A stretch of 64,000 nt of DNA from Halalkalicoccus sp. CGA53 (GCF_036429475.1 NZ_CP144125.1:2046001-2110000), one strand, 5' to 3'. Positions 2,067-26,405 are shown, numbered from the stretch's first letter. Numbers and translations: made by a program. Notes: generated by a model not told the origin, from the letters alone.

Positions 2067-2645
2067 ATGTTCGGAATCTCGAGGGATGCCACGCCGGACG
2101 CGCCGGTGGGCTCGGCGGACACACGCCGTCTCGTGGCGTTTCACTGGCACTGGACGACCGAGATGACGAACGCCGAGATCGCGACGGCGCTGGGTGTCAG
2201 GGAGCGGACGGTCGACAAGTACCTGTCATCGCCACCCTCGCAGGAGGCAAAGGCGAAGATGGCGGACGTCGAGGCCGGCGTTCGGTACGTCGCGATCGCC
2301 GAACTGAAAGAGCAGCTCCGTTCGGCTGGTCACGCGTCGAAAACCGCTGAGTGTCCCGTAAAGGTATGGGCCGACGACGACGGGAACCTCAACGTCAAAG
2401 ACGAGTACGACGACGAGACCGGTGAGGTCGTCGATAAGTATGTCGTGCCAGATACAATCGAGATCGGGCCGGATGAGAAAGCGCGGTATTTCCGGCGAGA
2501 GGAAGCTCGAGAGATCATCGATCTGCTGACCGACATCGTCGGGGCGAAAGCCGCCGAGCGCCACAAACACGAACACTCAGGAGAGGGCGGCGGACCGATC
2601 GAGGTAGTCATAAATGACAGCATCGTCACAAGCGACGACAGTTGA
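2067..2645 (+). CDS. Terminase small subunit-like protein
   Basis: 192 residues. The N-terminal part holds a helix-turn-helix, EMTNAEIATALGVRERTVDK (about residues 31-50), typical of viral small terminases that recognise the packaging site. A charged middle follows and then a helical segment, ARYFRREEAREIIDLLTDIV, with an acidic tail. It overlaps the large-terminase gene by 32 bases. Assignment rests on the fold and strict synteny, since small terminases diverge beyond recognition. It would bind viral DNA and load the large subunit. Confidence 0.7.
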   Translation: MFGISRDATPDAPVGSADTRRLVAFHWHWTTEMTNAEIATALGVRERTVDKYLSSPPSQEAKAKMADVEAGVRYVAIAELKEQLRSAGHASKTAECPVKVWADDDGNLNVKDEYDDETGEVVDKYVVPDTIEIGPDEKARYFRREEAREIIDLLTDIVGAKAAERHKHEHSGEGGGPIEVVINDSIVTSDDS

Positions 2646-3939
2646 ACTCAACCACCAGTGGACGACCTATCAGGCGGACACGCTCCGGGCGATCCACTCC
2701 GGTGAGTACGACCTCGTCGTCCTTCGGACGGGCTACGGGGGTGGGAAGTCGGTGCTGGGCTCGAGGTGGATCCATCGGACGGCACTCCAGCGTGGCGGCG
2801 AGTACCTCGTCCTCGCCCCGGACTTCGCGAAGGGCGGTCCGGCGACCTACCGCGTGTTCTTCGACGAACTCCCGGGTGAGAACACCGTCCCGAACGATGC
2901 GGCGGGCGATCCGGAGAACTCGCCGATCGTCGCGGGGTACAACGCGAACGAGAAGCGGCTGACGTACACCAACGGAGCCGTCGCCCGGCTCGGGTCGGCC
3001 GATAAGTGGAACCGGTACGCCGGCTCCGAGTTCAACGGCATCTGGGGGGACGAGCCGGCACACTACGACACGACGAACCTGTACGACCTCCACGAGATGC
3101 TCGTTTCACGCCAACGGACCGAGGCGGGGCCGAACGTCACGTTGTGGACGTCCACGGGCGCGGGGTTCAACCAGTACTACGACATCACGGAGCGGAAGGT
3201 GGACGAGGACGGCGAACCCCTACCGTGGGCGGATCGCATGGAGGTGATCGTCGGGTCGTCGCTCGACAACCCGTTCCTCTCGGAGAAAGAGAAGATGCTC
3301 GCACAGTTCGAGGGGACGCCTCGGGAGGCACAGGCGCTTCACGGCGGGTTCGCCGCTGCGCAGGGTCTCGTCTACCCCTCGTTCTCTCGCGAGCGGAACG
3401 TTGTCGCCGAATCAGAGGCGTGGGACCTCGTCTCGGGCGACTGGCGGATCTACGGCTACGACCACGGCTGGGCGGATCCCCGCGTCGTCCTCGAGATCGC
3501 GAAAACGAGCTACGATCAGTACATCGTCGTCGACTCGTTCTACCGATCCGAGACGAAGTACCAGAAGGCGGTCGACTGGCTCCGAGACAACGAGAAACCG
3601 GTCGGGACGATCCACTCGGAGACCGAACCGGAGCACCAGGAGGCATTCCGTTCGGCGGGCTACCCCTGCGAGGGAGCGATCAAGGACCTCGACGAAGGGA
3701 TCGCGCTCGTCCGGCAGTTCGTCGACGTCGATCACGAGGAGCGGCCGGGCCTGCTCGTCTCGGATCGGTGCGTCGAGCTGGTCCAGGAGTTCATGAGCTA
3801 CAAAGAGGAGCACGTCGGGAAGTCGGTCGCCGAGGACCACGCACTCGACGCTCTCAGGTACGCTCTGATGGGTGACAACTTCTCGCAGACGAAACCCACG
3901 ACCGTCAGATACCACGGCTCGCGCCCGGAGGATATGTAA
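2614..3939 (+). CDS. Terminase large subunit (packaging ATPase-nuclease)
   Basis: 441 residues, usual length. Walker A is RTGYGGGKS at residues 38-46; a Walker B-type segment GIWGDEPAHY follows near residue 143, and STGAG (near 183) fits coupling motif III. The C-terminal RNase H-like nuclease has its first acidic site in YGYDHGWADP (near residue 285) and a later one in AEDHALDALRYAL (near residue 412). The enzyme cuts concatemeric DNA and pumps it into proheads through the portal, which is encoded next. The start at 2614 lies inside the small-subunit gene. Confidence 0.93.
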   Translation: MTASSQATTVELNHQWTTYQADTLRAIHSGEYDLVVLRTGYGGGKSVLGSRWIHRTALQRGGEYLVLAPDFAKGGPATYRVFFDELPGENTVPNDAAGDPENSPIVAGYNANEKRLTYTNGAVARLGSADKWNRYAGSEFNGIWGDEPAHYDTTNLYDLHEMLVSRQRTEAGPNVTLWTSTGAGFNQYYDITERKVDEDGEPLPWADRMEVIVGSSLDNPFLSEKEKMLAQFEGTPREAQALHGGFAAAQGLVYPSFSRERNVVAESEAWDLVSGDWRIYGYDHGWADPRVVLEIAKTSYDQYIVVDSFYRSETKYQKAVDWLRDNEKPVGTIHSETEPEHQEAFRSAGYPCEGAIKDLDEGIALVRQFVDVDHEERPGLLVSDRCVELVQEFMSYKEEHVGKSVAEDHALDALRYALMGDNFSQTKPTTVRYHGSRPEDM

Positions 3940-13738: not shown

Positions 13739-16700
13739 ATGGCACTCACAGGGACCGGCGGGAGCGACATCGACGTCAACATCGGTGGCGACTCCTCGGG
13801 ACTTCAGTCCGCGATAGCCGCCGGCATCTCCGAGCTCAACAGTTTCAAGGGTGCCGTCGCGGCCGCCGGGGTCGCGGTCGCCGCGTTCGGCGGGAAAGCG
13901 CTCAAGGAGTCGATCGGCGCGGCGGCGTCGTTCGAGGCGCAGATGACGGAGTCGCTCGCTGTGATGGGCGACGTCTCGGATACGATGCGCAACGACATGG
14001 AGGACGCCGCCCGCTCCGTTGCGCGCGAGACGACGTTCTCCGCCGAGCAGGCCGGCGAGGCGTACTATTTCCTCGCCAGTGCGGGCTTCGACGCCGCGGA
14101 GTCGATCGAAGCGCTGCCCGAAGTCGCCAACTTCGCCGCTGCGGGCGCGATCGAGATGGGCGACGCCTCGGACTACGCGACCGACATCATGCAGGCGTTC
14201 GGCTACGAGGCCGAGGAACTCGATAAGGTCACGGACACGCTCACCGCCACGTTCACGAACCACAACCAGACCGCCGAGGGGATGGGCGAGGCGATGAGCT
14301 ACGTCGCGCCGGTCGCCTCCGAGATGGGGATGGAGATCGAGCAGGCGAGCGCCGCGATCGGCATGATGGGTGACGCCGGGATCAAGGGATCCCGTGCCGG
14401 GACATCACTCCGGCAGGCGCTGGCCTCGCTCGCCTCGCCGAGTGCGAAACAGGCCGAGCTGATGGAGGAGCTCGGCGTCAACGCGACCGACTCGAACGGC
14501 GACCTGCGGGACATGGGTGATATCCTGCGCGATCTCGAGGCCGCGGGGGTCACCTCCGGCCAGATGATGGAGTTGTTCGGGACGCGAGCCGGGCCGGCGA
14601 TGCAGGTCCTCCTTTCGGAGGGTGGCGACGCTCTCGACGAGTACACGAATCAGATCGCCGAGTCCGGCGGCATCACCGAGCAGGTCGCCCAGGACCAGAT
14701 GCAGAGTTTTCAGGCCCAGTTCAACATCCTCCTGTCGAACATTCGAGACGTCGCGATCGGGATCGGACAGGTGTTCCTTCCCGTTCTGACGGCGCTCACG
14801 CAGCGGCTCACGGGCGTCGTTCGGTGGTTCGCCGAACTCAACGACCGGTTCGACGGGCTTCCCGGCGCGATCGCGCTGGTCTCGACGGTGATCGGCGGGC
14901 TGACGGCCGCGGCGTACGTCCTCGGGACGACGTTCGCCTCCACGCTCGTCCCCGCGGCGGGCGCGGTCGCGGCGGGTATCGCGGCGATCGGCGCACCGAT
15001 CCTCGCTGTTGGGGCGATTCTGACGGCCGCGGCGGCCGCCTGGCGCACGGACTTCGCGGGGATCAGGACACAGGTCGAGCGCGTCACGGCCGCGTTCACA
15101 GACACGTTCGCCCCCTTGGTCCAATTGGCCCTGTCAACCGTCCAGTGGATCATCGGTGACCTCGCGGAGATGTGGCGCTCTCACACGGCCGCGGTCGAGG
15201 GGACGGTCGGGCGTGTCGTTTCGCTGGTTGGCGATCAGCTCGTCGGCCGGATCACAGCCGCCGGACAGGCGATCCATGAACGGATCTACTCGCTTGATGC
15301 GATCTGGGGACAGCACCGCGACACGGTCGACCAAACGATCGGCGCGGTCATCGGCTTCATCACGTCCCTCGCGGAACAGTTCTTCTCATATCTCCGACCG
15401 GTCGCGACGTTCCTCGTCGAGACGTTTCAGGCGGCCTGGGAGTCGGCGGTCGGGAGTATCATCTCGATCGGCGAGACGCTCGTCGAGCTCGTCATCGGAC
15501 TCGGTCAGCGGTTCGGCGTGTTCGACGAACAGACCCGGACCACGTCACAAGTCCTCGGCCAGCTGCTCGACCCGTTCAAGAAGGTGGAGCTGGCGGTCTC
15601 CGGCCTCCAGGAGGTCACCGGACACCTCACGACTCGCTGGGACGAGGACTTCTACGGCATCCGGACCACGACTGAGACCGCCACCGGCCGGATCAGAGAG
15701 ATCCTCGGCGGGATCGATCAGTCGCTCGTTACTGAGGGGCTCACGTCGATCCGGCAGACGTTCGACGGCGAACTCTCGGGGACGAGAGACGTCTCGATAC
15801 TCCGGATGGACGAGATCGCCGCCGGAGTGAGCGAGCGCCTCGAGGGGCTGGTCTCGGTCGGTCAGATGCTCTGGGACATGCACGCCGAGCAGACGGCGTC
15901 GACGCTCCAGAACCTCGCGGCGACGGTGATCCAACTCGTCACACACTTCACGGCGGTTTTCATCGACATCCTCTCACCGTTTCTCTCACGCGCGGGCCAG
16001 TTCTGGGACGAGCACGGCGACCAGATCATCTTCATCGTCGGCGCGTTCACGTCGATCGTCATCTCCCTCGTCCGGACACTCGTCGACACACTCCTCGCGG
16101 TCATCGGGCCAGCACTCGACCAGATGTCCCAGACCTGGGACGATCACGGCCATCTCGTCGTCACGGCGGTCGAGCTGATGGCCGACGTCGTGTTCGGGAC
16201 GCTCGGGTGGCTGATCGACTCGCTCGAGTCACTCATCAAGGCCGGAACGGCGGCGATGGAGGGAGACTGGTCGGCCGCGTGGTCCCACATCTCCGACATA
16301 TTCGTCAGCACGGCCGAGGGGATCTACTCGTTCGCGACGTCGTGGGGCGGACGGCTCCTCTCGTGGCTCAGCGGCCTCATCGGCGACGTGATCGATCACT
16401 TCGTCGGGATGGCTCGCGACCTCGTGGGCAATTCGGTCGTGCCCAACATGTTCGATTCGATACTGTCGGTCGCCGATCGGTTCGGGAGCGACCTAATTTG
16501 GTGGCTCGCTCGCCTCGCGGCCGATTTCGTCCGCGACCTCTTCCGGATGGGTCTCGACGCGACCCGAGAAGTCCGGAACATGGCGAGCGATATGCTCTCG
16601 GCGGTCGACATCACCGGCCGGTTCCGATCGGCCGGCTCCGCACTCATCTCGGCGTTCGCTCGCGGGATTCGAAACGCCGCGAGTGAGGCAACGAGCGCCG

Positions 16701-17020
16701 TCTCGGGCGTCGTCGACTCGGTGTCGAGCTATCTCCCTGGCTCCGACGCCGAGACAGGCCCGCTCGCGGATCTGACCAAACAGGGCGAAGCGCTCCCCGA
16801 GACGTTCGCCTCCGGGATCAAGGACGAAGCGGGTCTCGTCGCGGACATGGGCGCACTGGTCGGCGCGCTCGCGTCGCCACAGCCAGCTGGCGGCACCGGG
16901 CGGACGGATAGGTCCGTGACGGTCAACATCGAGAAGATCGAGGCCAGCGGGCGGCGTGAGGGTCGAGAAGCGGGCCGTGAACTCACGAAGGCGCTCGAGG
17001 CGTACAACGTGGGGCGCTAA
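13739..17020 (+). CDS. Tail tape measure protein (TP901 family)
   Basis: 1093 residues, the longest gene here. Residues 60-320 form the conserved core of TP901-type tape measures: ETTFSAEQAGEAYYFLASAG, then GIKGSRAGTSLRQALASLAS and MELFGTRAGPAMQVL. Several hydrophobic stretches follow (residues 375-440 and 720-830), with helical repeats to the end. It sets tail length and may help DNA cross the envelope. The two chaperone-like genes precede it. Confidence 0.93.
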   Translation: MALTGTGGSDIDVNIGGDSSGLQSAIAAGISELNSFKGAVAAAGVAVAAFGGKALKESIGAAASFEAQMTESLAVMGDVSDTMRNDMEDAARSVARETTFSAEQAGEAYYFLASAGFDAAESIEALPEVANFAAAGAIEMGDASDYATDIMQAFGYEAEELDKVTDTLTATFTNHNQTAEGMGEAMSYVAPVASEMGMEIEQASAAIGMMGDAGIKGSRAGTSLRQALASLASPSAKQAELMEELGVNATDSNGDLRDMGDILRDLEAAGVTSGQMMELFGTRAGPAMQVLLSEGGDALDEYTNQIAESGGITEQVAQDQMQSFQAQFNILLSNIRDVAIGIGQVFLPVLTALTQRLTGVVRWFAELNDRFDGLPGAIALVSTVIGGLTAAAYVLGTTFASTLVPAAGAVAAGIAAIGAPILAVGAILTAAAAAWRTDFAGIRTQVERVTAAFTDTFAPLVQLALSTVQWIIGDLAEMWRSHTAAVEGTVGRVVSLVGDQLVGRITAAGQAIHERIYSLDAIWGQHRDTVDQTIGAVIGFITSLAEQFFSYLRPVATFLVETFQAAWESAVGSIISIGETLVELVIGLGQRFGVFDEQTRTTSQVLGQLLDPFKKVELAVSGLQEVTGHLTTRWDEDFYGIRTTTETATGRIREILGGIDQSLVTEGLTSIRQTFDGELSGTRDVSILRMDEIAAGVSERLEGLVSVGQMLWDMHAEQTASTLQNLAATVIQLVTHFTAVFIDILSPFLSRAGQFWDEHGDQIIFIVGAFTSIVISLVRTLVDTLLAVIGPALDQMSQTWDDHGHLVVTAVELMADVVFGTLGWLIDSLESLIKAGTAAMEGDWSAAWSHISDIFVSTAEGIYSFATSWGGRLLSWLSGLIGDVIDHFVGMARDLVGNSVVPNMFDSILSVADRFGSDLIWWLARLAADFVRDLFRMGLDATREVRNMASDMLSAVDITGRFRSAGSALISAFARGIRNAASEATSAVSGVVDSVSSYLPGSDAETGPLADLTKQGEALPETFASGIKDEAGLVADMGALVGALASPQPAGGTGRTDRSVTVNIEKIEASGRREGREAGRELTKALEAYNVGR

Positions 17021-19425: not shown

Positions 19426-20610
19426 ATGGTCGACCTCGTAACACCAGGGGAAATCGGTGCCGAAGCCGACAGTCGGTCCTGGGGCCACGCGCTCGGGAAG
19501 GCGGGCGTCGCGCCGTGGATCGTCCACGGTGTGGACATCGCTGGTGCACACTCCGAGATCGACGACACCGCACTCGACGGGTTCAACTACGTCTCGTCGA
19601 GCGGACTCGACGTTACCATATCGGCCGGCGAGGCGTACGTTTACGGCTGGCTCGTTCGCGACCGGGAGACGACGGTCACGCTGCCCGCGGGCGCGACGAC
19701 GACGATCTACCTGGGGTACGACGTGGGTGCGGTGCTCGCCGAGGGAGAGGCGCCGAGCGACTCCGAGAACGTGATCATCGGCGAGGAAAGCGAGTTCGGC
19801 GACGGCGATCCGCGGACGCCGATCTGGGAGTTCGAGACAGACTCGTCGAGCGTGGTGGACGACGAGTGGTTAGGCGTGCTCGAGCAGCCGCTCGTCGTCG
19901 AGGACGGGGCGCTCACGCCACAGATCCCGTTTTCGGTGTCCGGCGATCTCGGTGTCTCGGGGGATATCAACCTCACCGGCAACAACGATCTGTACGTCGG
20001 CGATGGTGAGGGGCGGTTCGGAACGTTCGACGGCGAGGTTACCTGGTATCTCAACGACGAGGAGGGAGGCACGCGCTGGCGCTGGTACGCTCTCGGGAAC
20101 GATTCGGGAACGCGGGCGGATATGGATTACGACGGGAACATCGACTTCCGAGGGTCGGCGGTGGTTCGCGAGGATCTCGATGTCGGGAACGACGCCTTTG
20201 TCGACCGGGATGCACGCGTCGGTCGGCGTGTGGAGACGAATTACTCGGCCTCCTCCGGTGTCCGTGTTGAAGGCGATCAGAGCACGATTCGGTGGAACGG
20301 GGCTACAAGCCTCGATCTCTATTCCGGCGATGTGGGTGCTCATCAGGTCCGGGTCTACCCCGGCGACCGGACGCACGTCATGGAGGGCCTCGAGGTCGAC
20401 GGGCAGACGCAAGCTCAGGGTGGCATCTCGAACTGGGGGACCTTCTGGGGCAACGGCAGGGACCTTCGCGACCTCGGCGACGTCGAAGCCGGCGGCGAGC
20501 TCACCACCTCCGGTCGCGAAGTCCTCTCCGTTCAGAAGGACTGGGACGGTGACGAAATGATCCTCCAGAGTGAGAGTGGGACTGAGATCAGACTCACGAG
20601 CGAGGACTGA
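19426..20610 (+). CDS. Tail fibre-like protein (394 aa)
   Basis: Starts with a conserved-looking attachment region (VDLVTPGEIGAEADSRSWG), then a beta domain (SSGLDVTISAGEAYVYGWLV), and from about residue 185 a long series of short beta repeats with Gly-Asn/Asp turns (DLGVSGDINLTGNNDLYVGD), typical of trimeric fibre shafts. The last residues resemble fibre tips (ILQSESGTEIRLTSED). Likely adhesion fibre. Confidence 0.7.
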   Translation: MVDLVTPGEIGAEADSRSWGHALGKAGVAPWIVHGVDIAGAHSEIDDTALDGFNYVSSSGLDVTISAGEAYVYGWLVRDRETTVTLPAGATTTIYLGYDVGAVLAEGEAPSDSENVIIGEESEFGDGDPRTPIWEFETDSSSVVDDEWLGVLEQPLVVEDGALTPQIPFSVSGDLGVSGDINLTGNNDLYVGDGEGRFGTFDGEVTWYLNDEEGGTRWRWYALGNDSGTRADMDYDGNIDFRGSAVVREDLDVGNDAFVDRDARVGRRVETNYSASSGVRVEGDQSTIRWNGATSLDLYSGDVGAHQVRVYPGDRTHVMEGLEVDGQTQAQGGISNWGTFWGNGRDLRDLGDVEAGGELTTSGREVLSVQKDWDGDEMILQSESGTEIRLTSED

Positions 20611-20613
20611 CCC

Positions 20614-21345
20614 GTGGCGATCGAGATACGCGGGCCGTCTGAGTCCGAGTGGACGGAAGTCGATTTATCAGAAACGGATACTGACGAAAACGACGAGTGG
20701 GCGGTTAACGGAACGGTCGTCTACCGGTCCCAACAGATCATCGAGGACTGGGAGTCGTACAGTTCGACGAGCGACGTCGAGCAGTTCTGGAGTACGGAGG
20801 GGAGTGGCTCGTTCTCACTCGAGTCCGGAGGGCTCGTCGACGGATCTACACAGCACATCCGGCAGCAAGGGATGCATCAGATGCGCTCGTTCCCGTCGGG
20901 CGGGAACCACTCACAGACGCTCGGCCGGTATTTCGAGGAAGGCGACGAGGTCGAGATCCCGATCTGGATGGCTGCGGTGGGCGGTCCACACTACAACATT
21001 CTCGCCAATCTCGCGAGTGACACGGCAGAGGAGAACACCGAGAACTGGCGCTTTGAAATCCAGACCGGCTCGGGACTCCGAATCGTCTGGCACGACGGGA
21101 ATAGCCGAGACGTCAGAGCGAGCGAGAACAGTTCGTCTCCGTACTCGACGAGCGAGGTTTACCGGTTGCGGATCGGCGTCTCGTCGTCGCAGGTCACGTT
21201 TGCGATGGACGAGGCCGACGGCACGACGATCGCGAACATCTCGACGTCGAACGTCTCCGGATCGGAGGTCGCGAGCGAAATGAGCATCGGCCAGATCGCC
21301 CGCGGCGGCGGCGACTGGGAAGTCGATACGTGGTCGGTGCTCTGA
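20614..21345 (+). CDS. Lectin-like (jelly-roll) tail protein (243 aa)
   Basis: Begins at GTG 20614, three bases after the fibre stop. Residues 45-240 have the strand pattern of a concanavalin-like/LamG domain: IEDWESYSSTSDVEQFWSTE, GSFSLESGGLVDG, YRLRIGVSSSQVTFAMDEAD and the closing IGQIARGGGDWEVDTWSV. Such domains bind sugars, which fits a receptor-binding role on the glycosylated haloarchaeal surface (inference). Confidence 0.65.
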   Translation: MAIEIRGPSESEWTEVDLSETDTDENDEWAVNGTVVYRSQQIIEDWESYSSTSDVEQFWSTEGSGSFSLESGGLVDGSTQHIRQQGMHQMRSFPSGGNHSQTLGRYFEEGDEVEIPIWMAAVGGPHYNILANLASDTAEENTENWRFEIQTGSGLRIVWHDGNSRDVRASENSSSPYSTSEVYRLRIGVSSSQVTFAMDEADGTTIANISTSNVSGSEVASEMSIGQIARGGGDWEVDTWSVL

Positions 21346-21387
21346 GACGGCCGAAAACTCTGCCGACAGCAGTGAGTTGATAATTCA

Positions 21388-22074
21388 ATGACAGACGAAG
21401 AGGAATCCCTACCAGGTCGAGAAGAGAACCTCCCGGTCCCCGGGCGGCGGTATCCGGATGACGACCCGGAGAACCGCCGGTTTACCGACCTGCTCATCCC
21501 GGCGGTCGAGGAGATCAGCACGCGAGCGCTGTTTCGCGACTCGGAGGACAGCGTCGGCGACTACCCACCGCTGAGCGATGCGGTGTTCATCGCGACCGAC
21601 ACCGGCGCGGTTTACGAGGCCGACGGCAGTGCGTGGACGCTGACCGAGCTGTCGCTGTCCGGGCTCGTAATTGACGGTGAGGAGGCAGCGACGCTGGCCG
21701 ACCTCCCCAACTCGGCGGCGGACGTCGATGCCGAGCCGGCCGGAGCGGTCGAATCGCATCGCCTCGGCGAGACGCACGACCAACCACAGCCCCCGCAAGC
21801 CCACGACCACCAGGGTGACGTTCTCGATCCCACCTCGGCGTCGGTCGAGTCCGTCGGCTCGGAGTCGGTCGCCGTCCCGAATCGTGAGTGGGTCACCGAG
21901 CGGATCCGGTCGGCGATCGCCGCCGCCGAGCTCGCGCTGCTGACGATCCTCACCGACGCGACTCACACCGTCGCGGAGAACACGACCGAGACCTACCGTG
22001 GCGTCGACATCGAGGAGAGCGGCACGCTCGAGATCGAGGTGAACGCCACGCTCGAGATAGCGGAGACGATCTGA
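21388..22074 (+). CDS. Tail fibre-associated protein (228 aa)
   Basis: 228-residue acidic protein. Residues 70-95 (AVFIATDTGAVYEADGSAWT) form a beta motif common in fibre N-termini; residues 125-170 hold His/Gln-rich sequence, and the C-terminus repeats short strands (EESGTLEIEVNATLEIAETI) resembling the start of a beta-helix or fibre shaft. It is cotranscribed with the other adhesion genes. Confidence 0.6.
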   Translation: MTDEEESLPGREENLPVPGRRYPDDDPENRRFTDLLIPAVEEISTRALFRDSEDSVGDYPPLSDAVFIATDTGAVYEADGSAWTLTELSLSGLVIDGEEAATLADLPNSAADVDAEPAGAVESHRLGETHDQPQPPQAHDHQGDVLDPTSASVESVGSESVAVPNREWVTERIRSAIAAAELALLTILTDATHTVAENTTETYRGVDIEESGTLEIEVNATLEIAETI

Positions 22075-22095
22075 GGTAACCAGCAACCAGCAACC

Positions 22096-22782
22096 ATGCC
22101 AGAGAAAATCAGCATCAGACACAACGCCAATGGCCGGCTCGTAGGTATCGACGATCAGGGTAACGAGGTTCCTCTCGACGTCGACGAACTCGACGCGCTG
22201 TCGGTGAGTACAGAGGCGGCGGAGATCGGCGAAGGGGTTGAGCCAGAGGACGAGTTAACTGTTGGACTCACAGGGACCGATACCGAGTTCGGTTTTGGTG
22301 CCGACGGGACGTTCTCGGCGGCTGGCTTCGAACCGACCGACCCCGCTGAACAGGTTGGACACACATCTATAATACTCGATGGGGACCAGACCGTCTCTCA
22401 ATACGATTGGGAGAGAGTCGAGTTTAACGATGTGGAAGAAGACGATTTCGGTGCATGGGATTCCACCGAATACGAATACGTCGTTCCCGCCGATGGTGTT
22501 TACCATGTCGTATTTGAAATTGGCTGGACTGGCGGAGACGGGGGAGCAGGGGATATAGCCTTCCGGCTGAATCGGAATGGTAGCGTGACACGCGGTCGGT
22601 GTTTCAACGTCTGGAATATAGATTATCCGTCTGGCGGCGATGTTTCACAAAAAGGTAATACGAGAATACGCTGTCAGGAGGGGGACATTCTCGACCTTCA
22701 AGTCCGACACCGAACAGTCGGTCAGCCTGACCTCCACGGCGGCTCCGTTCGGACGTTCCTAACCGTCGACAAGGTGATGTAA
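22096..22782 (+). CDS. C1q/TNF-like receptor-binding protein (228 aa)
   Basis: Residues 90-228 show the C1q-like jelly roll: YEYVVPADGVYHVVFEIGW, then FRLNRNGSVTRGRCFNVWN, and the final LHGGSVRTFLTVDKVM. The first 80 residues are a short shaft. C1q-type heads are common trimeric tips of viral fibres. Base composition is visibly more AT-rich than the neighbouring head genes, suggesting recent acquisition of the tip. It overlaps the next gene by one base. Confidence 0.65.
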   Translation: MPEKISIRHNANGRLVGIDDQGNEVPLDVDELDALSVSTEAAEIGEGVEPEDELTVGLTGTDTEFGFGADGTFSAAGFEPTDPAEQVGHTSIILDGDQTVSQYDWERVEFNDVEEDDFGAWDSTEYEYVVPADGVYHVVFEIGWTGGDGGAGDIAFRLNRNGSVTRGRCFNVWNIDYPSGGDVSQKGNTRIRCQEGDILDLQVRHRTVGQPDLHGGSVRTFLTVDKVM

Positions 22783-23873
22783 TGGTCGAATTACTGTCGA
22801 ACCCCTACGAAGCGGTCGATTGGGATGCGTACCTCCAAGTCAAATCCGACCATCACTACCATACAGAGAAGGACAATCCCCCGCCACACGACATGGTGGA
22901 CACACTCGTTGATGATCTGGATTACGGCATCCTCACCTTCGACAGAGGGACGAATCTCGAAAACGGTACTATGTGGCCGTGGACCGAGTGGAGCACGTAC
23001 GAAGACGGTTGGGAAGACCGCGACCCTGACACCGATTTCACCCGCGACGTGGTGGCCGTCCAAGGCATGGAGCAGGGCACCGACCACACGCTGTCCCTGT
23101 TCTCGGACCTCGAACCGCAGGACTTCAACCTGACGACGTGGTACAATCTTCTCGGAGAGATCAAAGCGACCGGCGGGCTCGCGGTCCTCGAACACCCCAG
23201 CCGATACACCGACGCGGAGGGAGCCGTAGAGCGGTGGGGCGACGGGTTCGAGGACTTCCCTGACACGCTCATCGGGTTTGCCGCGTGGAACAAAGACGCA
23301 GGCCACTTCAACGCCCAGGGGCACCACAGATACGACGACGTGGAATCTTGGGACGCGCTACTGTCTCATTTTATGCCCGAACGCCCGATTTGGGCGTTCT
23401 CTCACGACGACCCGCACGGCTTCGAGCGCGGTCACGACCTCGATGTTCGGTACAACACCGTGGCCGTAGAGGAGATGACTACCGAGGCCGTTCGGACGGC
23501 CTACGAAGACGGACAATTGTTCGCCCACTCCCGAGAGCATTGGGCCGACGACACAGAGGCCCCGCCCGAGATGCCGACGGTCAACGAGATCGTGGTAGAT
23601 GAGTCTGAACCATCTATCACCATCGACGCCTCGGGATACGAGTCGGTTCGGTGGATATGCCAGGGATGGGTGGTCGGGGAGAGCGAGACGCTGGTTTTGA
23701 CCGACGAGATGGACAAGTACGTCCGGGCTGAGTTGTTGACGAACCCGGACGCCCATACCCTGACGCAACCGTTCGGTGTTGACGGGGACGGCCCGAGCTT
23801 CGGGGTGACGAGTTCGGCAAAGTGGGAGCACCGAAGCGAGGCCGAGTGGGGGCACGAGGTCGGTCCACGTTGA
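22782..23873 (+). CDS. PHP-domain phosphoesterase-like tail protein (363 aa)
   Basis: Residues 20-215 carry PHP-like metal motifs: SDHHYHTE (first H-x-H, near residue 23), DYGILTFDRG, VQGMEQGTDHT (Glu and His), GGLAVLEHPSRY (His) and WAFSHDDPHGFERG (Asp-x-His). PHP enzymes use a trinuclear metal site to hydrolyse phosphoesters. Residues 265-363 are a beta domain. The gene overlaps the C1q-like gene by one base and precedes the beta-helix enzyme, so it belongs to the adhesion operon. A role in cutting a phosphorylated surface polymer or lipid is inferred. Confidence 0.68.
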   Translation: MVELLSNPYEAVDWDAYLQVKSDHHYHTEKDNPPPHDMVDTLVDDLDYGILTFDRGTNLENGTMWPWTEWSTYEDGWEDRDPDTDFTRDVVAVQGMEQGTDHTLSLFSDLEPQDFNLTTWYNLLGEIKATGGLAVLEHPSRYTDAEGAVERWGDGFEDFPDTLIGFAAWNKDAGHFNAQGHHRYDDVESWDALLSHFMPERPIWAFSHDDPHGFERGHDLDVRYNTVAVEEMTTEAVRTAYEDGQLFAHSREHWADDTEAPPEMPTVNEIVVDESEPSITIDASGYESVRWICQGWVVGESETLVLTDEMDKYVRAELLTNPDAHTLTQPFGVDGDGPSFGVTSSAKWEHRSEAEWGHEVGPR

Positions 23874-23984
23874 GAAGTTGTAGCCGGCCCGTTCTCCTCT
23901 AACGATCCGGAATAAAGACTAGCGATGAGCCACCGGGGCGAGCACCACACGTCACGCCGACCGGTTGATGCAGTATTCCATACC

Positions 23985-25784
23985 ATGATAGACATATCAA
24001 TCAACGACGAAGCGTTAGAGGCATTGATCGTCGAGCGCGTGGACGACGTGCTCGGGGAGATAGACTTCGGGGGCGGACCTCCGGGGCAGGGCGGCGAGTC
24101 GGCGTACACGACCGTTGGCGTCGGTGGCGACTACGACAGCCTGGAGAACGCCTACGACGCCTGCGCGGAGGGTGCGGGCGGCGAGGTCATGGTCCTGCCG
24201 ACCTACTCCGCGCGAAACGACTCGTTTCCCATCGAGATCGACGACAGAGCGACCGGCATCCGAGGGCAAGGATACGCGAGCACGATCGACGCCCGTGGGA
24301 CGAGCGGCCCCGTGTTCGATCTCTGTTACGGCGCCGTCCGGCCGCTCGGGGCGGGGATCAACAACCTCCGGATCCGGGGCGGTGACCCGGGCGTGCTCGT
24401 CTCCTCGGCGCGCTACTCGGAGATGGAGCGCGTCATGATCCGGGACACTGATGGCGTCGGTCTGCTGCTCGAGTCCGACGGGAGCGGCGCGATCAACACG
24501 CACGACTATCGCGGACTCAAGATCGAGAAGACGGCCTCGCACGGCATCCATCTCGCGAGCGAGCACAACTCCGCAGCCCACTCGACCCGCTTCCTCCAGA
24601 CCGACGTCAACTTCGCCGGCGGCCACGGCCTTCTGCTCGACGGCGGGTTCAGCGTCGACTTCTGGCAGGGGACACTCCAGCACTCGGAGCTCCACGGCCT
24701 CTGCGGGACGGAGAAGAACTCCGGGATGATCGACGTCAAGGGGTGCTATATCGAGGCCAACAACGAGAGCGGCGACGTCGACGCCGAGGTCCGCCTGGAT
24801 CGGTCGTTCGGGTCGTCGATCACCGACTGCTACTTCTACGACCTCGGGAACGGGACGCCGCACGCGATCGTCCTCGCCGGCCGGAATCAGACGGTCGATA
24901 AGTGCACGTTCCGGCCCTACTCGAGAGCTCGTATCGCCGACGAGACCGGGCAGAACACCGTCCGGGCCGAGGGCTGTCGGCTGATCGGCGGGGGCGTGCT
25001 CGGGGATTTTAGCTCCCCGTCCGGTGGCGAGGTGCCGTCGGGCGGTGGCGGCACCGAATCGGATGGTCCTCGAGGCAACTATCGGATCAACGAGGGCACC
25101 GACGACGAAACGACGGTCCACGTCTTCGGGACCGGCTCGCCGAAGACGATGGTCGTCGCGAACATCCACGGCAACGAGCGGAGCGCGGCGATCGCCGCCG
25201 AGCGGATGATCGACGAGGAGTGGGAACCGAGAGAGGGACAGCTGCTCGTCCTGAACCCGGCCTGGCCGTGTGCGGATCGGAACGAGACGCGCGACGGATG
25301 TGGCTACGACGCGAACCGCGCCTTCGGTGGTGATCCAGAGGCGTATGACGCCTTCGACGACGAGGGTTGGACGGAGATGGCTCGCGGGATCTTCACCGCG
25401 GTCGAGGCGGAGGACCCCGACGTCCTGATCGACCTCCACGCTTCGTGGCAGCTCGGGAACGGCCCGGCGCGCAAGATTTTCCCGAACGGTCGCGGCGACT
25501 CGAGAGAGTTCGCCCGGAACGCCTGTGACGCCGTCAACGCCTATCACGGATTCTCTGGTAGCGAAGCGTGGTCGGTCGGCAACACCGTCTCGCCGAGCGG
25601 GGCGGGCAACCAGGGGATGCTCGTGACGCGCTGTCACGACATCGGCGTCCCGGCGCTGCTTTCGGAGACGTACGTTCGCGGCGGCTCCTGGACAGCGCAG
25701 TCCCAGCGACATCTGACGGTCGTCGCGCAGGTGATGGGCGACGTCGGACACAGACATCCGCCGAAAATCGGGCGCTGGCGGTAG
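23985..25784 (+). CDS. Tailspike: beta-helix plus zinc-carboxypeptidase/AstE-like domain
   Basis: 599 residues from ATG 23985; an upstream ATG at 23925 adds a basic stretch unlike the rest. Residues 1-30 (SINDEALEALIVERVDDVLG) look like a trimerisation helix. Residues 40-345 have the repeats of a right-handed beta-helix (DYDSLENAYDACAEGAGGEV near 42). Residues 370-599 match the M14/succinylglutamate desuccinylase fold: NIHGNERS (metal His and Glu), DANRAFGG, DLHASWQ (metal His) and a late ALLSETYVRGG (possible catalytic Glu). A host-surface depolymerase or deacylase is inferred. Confidence 0.78.
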   Translation: MIDISINDEALEALIVERVDDVLGEIDFGGGPPGQGGESAYTTVGVGGDYDSLENAYDACAEGAGGEVMVLPTYSARNDSFPIEIDDRATGIRGQGYASTIDARGTSGPVFDLCYGAVRPLGAGINNLRIRGGDPGVLVSSARYSEMERVMIRDTDGVGLLLESDGSGAINTHDYRGLKIEKTASHGIHLASEHNSAAHSTRFLQTDVNFAGGHGLLLDGGFSVDFWQGTLQHSELHGLCGTEKNSGMIDVKGCYIEANNESGDVDAEVRLDRSFGSSITDCYFYDLGNGTPHAIVLAGRNQTVDKCTFRPYSRARIADETGQNTVRAEGCRLIGGGVLGDFSSPSGGEVPSGGGGTESDGPRGNYRINEGTDDETTVHVFGTGSPKTMVVANIHGNERSAAIAAERMIDEEWEPREGQLLVLNPAWPCADRNETRDGCGYDANRAFGGDPEAYDAFDDEGWTEMARGIFTAVEAEDPDVLIDLHASWQLGNGPARKIFPNGRGDSREFARNACDAVNAYHGFSGSEAWSVGNTVSPSGAGNQGMLVTRCHDIGVPALLSETYVRGGSWTAQSQRHLTVVAQVMGDVGHRHPPKIGRWR

Positions 25785-25796
25785 AAGACCACAACC

Positions 25797-26405
25797 ATGT
25801 TACAGGACATACTCGACAACGAGCGGCTGTACCGAGCGATCGTCCCGCTGACGTTCGGCGTGCTCTACGGGACGTACCACTACGTCGATAACAAGATGGA
25901 CGGCGACTCACCGAAAGCGTCGTTCGACGCCTACGTCTACGGCAAGACCGTCCTCGCGAGCGCGGGCGCGGCGCTGATCGTCACGCTTCGGGGCGACGAC
26001 CTCACGTTCGACGCGATCGACGCGCTGATCCCGCTGCTCATCGTGATCGTGGACGACAAGCTCAACCAGGGCCTCGGCTGGGGCTCTGGCGACGACGGTG
26101 AAGACAGGGGCCATGACGAGGATTCTGAACCGAATGGCGAGGCGCCGGTCATATCCTGGACCGACGCTGAGGAGCGCTTCGACAGCCTCTCACGACGACC
26201 GAACGGCTCCGAGCCTTCAGAGCCAGTCATCGAGTCCGGGTCCGAGCCGAACGACGATCTCGACGATAGTGAGATTCTGGACGGTCTCACGCGCGAAGAG
26301 AAATTCGCCGGGATGGACGACGAAAGAGACGAACGAGACGAACGGCTCTCCGAAGAGGAAGTAGCAGCGGAGGCCGTCGAACGTCTCGATGCCGAGGGTG
26401 AGTGA
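25797..26405 (+). CDS. Membrane protein with acidic cytoplasmic tail (202 aa)
   Basis: Two or three hydrophobic segments lie in residues 13-90 (YRAIVPLTFGVLYGTYHYV; GKTVLASAGAALIVTL; AIDALIPLLIVIVDD), followed by an extremely acidic tail. This plan, directly after the tail genes, fits a holin-like or lysis-associated protein, but no family is recognised and no endolysin is visible nearby. Confidence 0.6.
   Translation: MLQDILDNERLYRAIVPLTFGVLYGTYHYVDNKMDGDSPKASFDAYVYGKTVLASAGAALIVTLRGDDLTFDAIDALIPLLIVIVDDKLNQGLGWGSGDDGEDRGHDEDSEPNGEAPVISWTDAEERFDSLSRRPNGSEPSEPVIESGSEPNDDLDDSEILDGLTREEKFAGMDDERDERDERLSEEEVAAEAVERLDAEGE

Follow-up and report, generated by a model that had tools for sequence, protein, structure and literature searches.

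What do the last two genes of a haloarchaeal virus tail module do, and do they do it together? In the window, the whole 64,000-nucleotide stretch of DNA analyzed here, two adjacent genes on one strand, gene 1 (encoding P0001) and gene 2 (encoding P0002), lie at the distal end of the tail module. A preliminary description had read them as one unit, a PHP-type phosphoesterase next to a beta-helix/M14-like hydrolase, that could remove phosphate- or acyl-linked groups from the host surface. We confirmed both open reading frames and their place behind the tape-measure and fibre-like genes; that description had the fold and the location right, was mistaken in proposing a fixed unit, and was overconfident on PHP catalysis and on phosphate chemistry. 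The reading that we favour, with somewhat better than even confidence, is that gene 1 and gene 2 encode tail-tip or tail-fibre-associated proteins that come from exported enzyme families and act on the host coat.

The host genome comprises 4.0 Mb in two contigs, and the first 27 kb of the window form a tailed-virus structural module. Its terminase large subunit gene (2614-3939) is about 60% identical to those of HSTV-1, HRTV-28, and related haloviruses; portal, major head protein, and tape-measure genes were also identified, followed by genes with weak similarity to tail genes. The element is a haloarchaeal tailed provirus integrated in a salt-loving archaeon. Sequence common to this provirus and a second one in the same genome puts its left end near -1880, outside the window; no direct repeat of at least 18 bp was found between the provirus flanks tested. 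Because the gene at 19426 resembles, at its N-terminus, the one that precedes the phiCh1 tail-fibre pair, the region 20614-25784 occupies the fibre/adhesin position. The gene just before gene 1 shares a 39-aa similarity with the gene that precedes a PHP relative in the provirus at L069 (G319), which is discussed below. This upstream gene has the lowest GC content in the tail module (0.55); with 0.61, the PHP gene is low as well, a hint that the two may have come in jointly. Past the tail module, GC drops to 0.48 between 28000 and 32000, compared with 0.65 in the provirus. The features of the locus are collected in the table.

Table. Coordinates of genes and predicted functional residues in the window.
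Feature	Position	Strand	Remarks
Tail tape measure gene	13739..17020	+	48% identity over 395 aa to tape measure of L069 provirus
Fibre/virion-protein-like gene before gene 1	22096..22782	+	weak PHROG tail-fibre/virion matches
Gene 1 (P0001), 363 aa	22782..23873	+	variant PHP-fold protein, C-terminal Ig/CBM-like beta domain
PHP motif I, H25-Y-H27	22854..22862	+	predicted metal ligands; invariant in 36 sequences
PHP motif II, T52-F-D54-R55	22935..22946	+	Arg in place of His; alignment
PHP motif III, E97 and H102	23070..23087	+	alignment
PHP motif IV, H138	23193..23195	+	alignment
PHP motif V, D210-P-H212	23409..23417	+	alignment
C-terminal peptide SSxxxWxxxSExEW of gene 1	23805..23852	+	also at C-terminus of L069 proviral PHP
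Gene 2 leader	23874..23984	+	conserved in second provirus copy; homology starts here
Gene 2 (P0002), 599 aa	23985..25784	+	N-terminal module, predicted right-handed beta-helix ~60-340, M14 AstE/AspA-like domain ~360-590
M14 zinc ligands H395 and E398 (NIHGNE)	25161..25178	+	predicted; invariant in alignment
M14 DANRAF, substrate-binding R445	25308..25325	+	predicted; alignment
M14 third zinc ligand H485 (DLHAS)	25431..25445	+	predicted; alignment
M14 catalytic glutamate E561	25665..25667	+	predicted; alignment
Small membrane-protein-like gene after gene 2	25797..26405	+	first 37 codons in block common to second provirus

On its own, P0001 has no significant match in Pfam, PHROGs, NCBIfam, or PDB sequences, and a scan of viral contigs with P0001 and its near relatives also yielded no match. 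Matches to gene 1 occur in 19 of 394 genomes of the order, its own genome counted, and the family comprises 21 haloarchaeal relatives. In the family alignment, the CehA/McbA metallohydrolase model (NF038032) is matched at E <= 0.01 by 12 of the 22 members, P0001 itself not among them, and Pfam PHP by two. The family profile matches PHP crystal structures with E values of 3.5e-11 and 2.5e-10; relatives match PDB entries 3e38 (BVU_3505) and 2anu (TM0559). An AlphaFold model built with the sequences of bacterial relatives scored pLDDT 80.7 and pTM 0.85, and a Foldseek search with this model returned PHP proteins as the top nine PDB matches, followed by Ig-like domains, which fit the C-terminal part of gene 1. 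Taken together, the profile matches and the model settle the PHP fold, a distorted barrel, at the level of prediction, as the preliminary description had proposed. Gene 1 shares its fold, motif order, and C-terminal beta domain with CehA/McbA-like proteins, BVU_3505, and TM0559; unlike CehA/McbA-like PHP proteins, it falls below single-sequence HMM detection, carries Arg at the motif-II His position, and is located in a viral tail module. The label phosphoesterase goes beyond these data: the nearest curated family is CehA/McbA, named for ester/carbamate hydrolases, and one metal ligand of gene 1 is lost.

In active PHP domains, nine residues hold three metals (PMC3666897); the full set is required for the three-metal site, not for the PHP fold. 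Across 36 aligned sequences, H25, H27, H138, and D210 are invariant, and P0001 also retains E97, H102, and H212. The set is nonetheless incomplete: seven ligands are retained in addition to an ambiguous motif-I Asp, and the motif-II His, kept in bacterial and most haloarchaeal members, is Arg55, so that the TDH expected of a complete motif set reads T-F-D54-R55. Lys, Arg, or Ser stands at this position in the exported relatives L002 and L005 and the proviral L017 and L018, with which P0001 groups weakly in the tree (80/86). This position-4 His is among the residues most often lost from PHP domains, and Arg is its usual replacement (PMC3666897). From the alignment we infer a site with two metals at most, or a degenerate one, in which Arg55 replaces the third metal. 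Catalysis by gene 1 is thus uncertain; the protein may be non-catalytic, since one of its metal ligands is gone and further losses occur in its clade. The expectation that structure prediction would place the His, Asp, and Glu residues of gene 1 in a metal site is borne out by the AlphaFold model at the level of the fold only. The C-terminal peptide common to P0001 and the L069 PHP is absent elsewhere among the loci compared; the pattern was drawn from these two proteins themselves and is an observation, not a test.

The start of gene 2 is most likely 23985; another in-frame ATG lies at 23925. Its C-terminal domain matches PF24827 (AstE_AspA_cat) with an E value of 4.7e-7 and 30 bits, above the gathering cut-off of 25. 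The beta-helix scores 24.4 bits against PF13229, just below the cut-off of 25.9, which a homologous host beta-helix passes. AlphaFold, working from four sequences, gave a pLDDT of 34. All five predicted catalytic residues, H395, E398, H485, R445, and E561, are invariant in the M14 alignment, so the predicted set is complete; E561 is an addition to the motifs listed earlier. The profile matches and the alignment uphold the earlier assignment of an M14/AstE domain and, less firmly, that of the beta-helix fused to it. The motifs originally quoted are all present, in gene 1 (HHYH at residues 24-27, GMEQGTDH at 95-102, LEHPSRY at 136-142, HDDPH at 208-212) and in gene 2 (NIHGNE at 393-398, DANRAF at 442-447, DLHAS at 483-487), and they are not due to chance, given that PF24827 matches gene 2 above its cut-off and that the joint profile of the 21 gene 1 relatives matches PHP structures.

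Gene 2 thus resembles the M14 AstE/AspA family, annotated in haloarchaea as 'succinylglutamate desuccinylase/aspartoacylase family protein', in its above-threshold match and its full set of catalytic residues, and differs from it by the attached beta-helix and by its place among viral tail genes. No signal peptide is visible in P0001 or P0002, and tblastn with both proteins against 50,697 phage records detected no homologue. M14 domains do occur in or beside the tail modules of other tailed-virus contigs. In one viral contig (L093:7542-8717), an N-terminal part precedes an M14/AstE domain in one fused protein, whose gene lies in the tail module before the tape measure.

Both families have exported cellular relatives, in haloarchaea for both and also in bacteria for PHP. 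In this genome and in those of two congeners, the chromosome carries a gene for a Tat-exported protein in which a beta-helix is followed by an M14 domain (L055, L024, L025). In pairwise comparison, both halves of gene 2 are homologous to the host protein (E 2e-10 and 2e-34), and in the M14 tree the viral and host forms fall inside one supported group of eight (96/98). Given the common two-domain architecture, the homology of both halves, and the common tree group, gene 2 is a viral form, lacking the signal, of a host-type exported enzyme. Compared with the host protein, it is without the Tat signal and without the stretch that separates helix from enzyme, and its N-terminal module is its own. 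The host homologue also matches Peptidase_M99; removal of acyl groups, as first suggested, is therefore one option for an AstE-type M14 domain, and cleavage of a peptide or amide bond is as likely.

Among the PHP relatives, bacterial proteins have signal-like hydrophobic segments at their N-termini, and the haloarchaeal L002, L005, and L017 have Tat-type signals. Some are encoded in surface-polysaccharide clusters with epimerase, glycosyltransferase, nucleotidyltransferase, and phosphodiesterase genes, or beside a polysaccharide deacetylase. These data support the earlier suggestion of surface action as likely for both proteins. At L102 and L103 (G412:C5), several variant PHP genes lie in one surface-polysaccharide region, some of them after short open reading frames of a common type.

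A second proviral case is found at L069, where a fibre-like gene is followed by a PHP relative, a small gene, and a polysaccharide lyase 14 gene (E 3.6e-19). The lyase-like gene (L069:7804-8862, G319:C35) stands at the end of the provirus tail module. The L069 PHP protein, unlike P0001, has a Tat lipobox-like stretch at its start and may be located elsewhere; the predicted lipoprotein-type signal points to a cell-anchored rather than a virion role there. A PHP gene plus a surface enzyme thus recurs in two proviruses (n=2), that of the window and L069. A further search, in two haloarchaeal families (171 and 148 genomes), brought up no other proviral PHP; three new loci (L111-L113) look chromosomal. 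It is a tentative and rather doubtful generalization that haloarchaeal tailed viruses convert the exported surface-remodelling enzymes of their hosts to tail parts, with a variant two-metal PHP behind a fibre gene and an exchangeable second coat-cutting enzyme, beta-helix/M14 here and polysaccharide lyase 14 in L069, for stepwise degradation of the coat.

Do gene 1 and gene 2 form a unit? The one-base overlaps once cited in favour of this exist in part: gene 1 shares one base with the fibre-like gene before it, whereas 111 bp (51 bp at the least) separate the start of gene 2 from the stop codon of gene 1. The overlap ties gene 1 to the gene upstream, not to gene 2. The second provirus of the genome, a truncated one outside the window (L053/L054, G000:C2:2506700-2511651), has three parts in common with the first: the left end (87%), a block with gene 2 (82%), and a regulator gene (74%). 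Its gene 2 is 83% identical and stands behind a different gene. The common block starts just past the gene 1 stop codon and ends within the gene that follows gene 2; upstream of it in the second provirus lies the end of another open frame. That the boundary falls cleanly at the end of a gene in each copy favours cassette exchange, with some room left for an earlier loss of the PHP gene from the second provirus, which bears deletions. We also searched about 20 kb (about 10 kb each way) around 16 PHP relatives with P0001 and P0002 joined as the query, so that both proteins were tested at these loci, and no gene 2 homologue was flagged. Two points could suggest one conserved functional unit of PHP and beta-helix/M14 proteins, as originally proposed: the genes adjoin on one strand, and in L069 another surface enzyme (PL14) is encoded close to the PHP gene. 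With an M14 gene lacking a PHP neighbour in a related provirus remnant of the same genome and no gene 2 homologue flagged near the 16 PHP relatives, we hold such a unit to be very improbable. As judged from gene order, gene 1 and gene 2 are neighbours here, not a fixed pair, and look like independent cassettes in an adhesin slot.

The virion location, the catalysis, and the host-coat substrate that we propose are inferred from families, residues, and gene position. Gene 2 would encode a tail-spike-like protein whose beta-helix stalk bears a zinc-dependent M14/AstE-type amidohydrolase, with its predicted catalytic residues complete; during attachment, the target of this enzyme would be an amide/acyl or peptide bond in the outer coat of the host. 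Gene 1, a variant PHP protein that ends in a beta domain and whose site could hold two metals at most, would bind or hydrolyze a surface glycan component beside the fibre. The two viral proteins probably act on the host coat during attachment. A serious competitor, at a little under even chances, makes gene 1 a dead PHP scaffold, a glycan-binding or structural part of the tail, with gene 2 as the sole enzyme. The Arg at the motif-II position is common in variant PHP domains thought to be inactive (PMC3666897), the whole gene 1 clade lacks this His and mostly the motif-V His as well, and the Ig-like C-terminal domain is consistent with such a role; P0001, however, keeps H25, H27, E97, H102, H138, D210, and even H212, more ligands than its closest relatives keep and unexpected in a dead scaffold.

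The two genes might also serve lysogenic conversion, altering the host surface, for example to block superinfection, and not be virion parts. The lipobox-like signal of the L069 PHP, the export of the host-genus beta-helix/M14 protein, and the separate 111-bp leader of gene 2 would fit; we regard this as unlikely, given that neither window protein has a visible signal peptide and that both genes belong to the late tail module and share its strand, gene 1 overlapping the fibre-like gene. Little probability attaches to an intracellular role for gene 1, as a nucleotide or small-molecule phosphoesterase or a counter-defence enzyme. Nucleases and nucleotide phosphatases exist among PHP proteins, and many haloarchaeal relatives have a canonical metal site and no signal peptide, but P0001 groups, if weakly, with exported, proviral, and element-borne relatives rather than with that signal-less canonical clade, and its gene sits in the tail module.

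Enzymes that act on the host coat are already known among the proteins of tailed viruses. The turret of HFTV1 carries a polysaccharide-deacetylase-like domain on the virion, a precedent for coat-acting domains in archaeal tailed viruses (PMC12494034). Like the proteins that we propose, it is a putative metal-dependent virion enzyme, thought to weaken the S-layer glycan; it has another fold and sits on the capsid turret, not at the tail end, where the window proteins are predicted to be. Gene 2 also resembles phage tail-spike depolymerases, as it encodes a predicted beta-helix protein and stands last among the tail genes, but its catalytic part is a separate C-terminal M14 domain, and no glycosidase or lyase site was identified in its beta-helix. 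A literature search of limited scope found no report of the PHP or beta-helix/M14 families in haloarchaeal viruses.

How archaeal tailed viruses pass S-layers and surface glycans is poorly known, and the HFTV1 domain is the clearest lead that we found. If they are on the virion, the gene 1 and gene 2 proteins are concrete, expressible candidates for tail enzymes directed against the archaeal envelope, and through the host-encoded counterpart of gene 2 the substrate could then be approached directly. One idea for what the M14 domain might cleave is poly-gamma-glutamate, a polymer reported for Natrialba and Natronococcus (PMC8909396). The host beta-helix/M14 gene itself, a good lead to the substrate, lies at L055:6951-8993 (G000:C2, about 947-949 kb).
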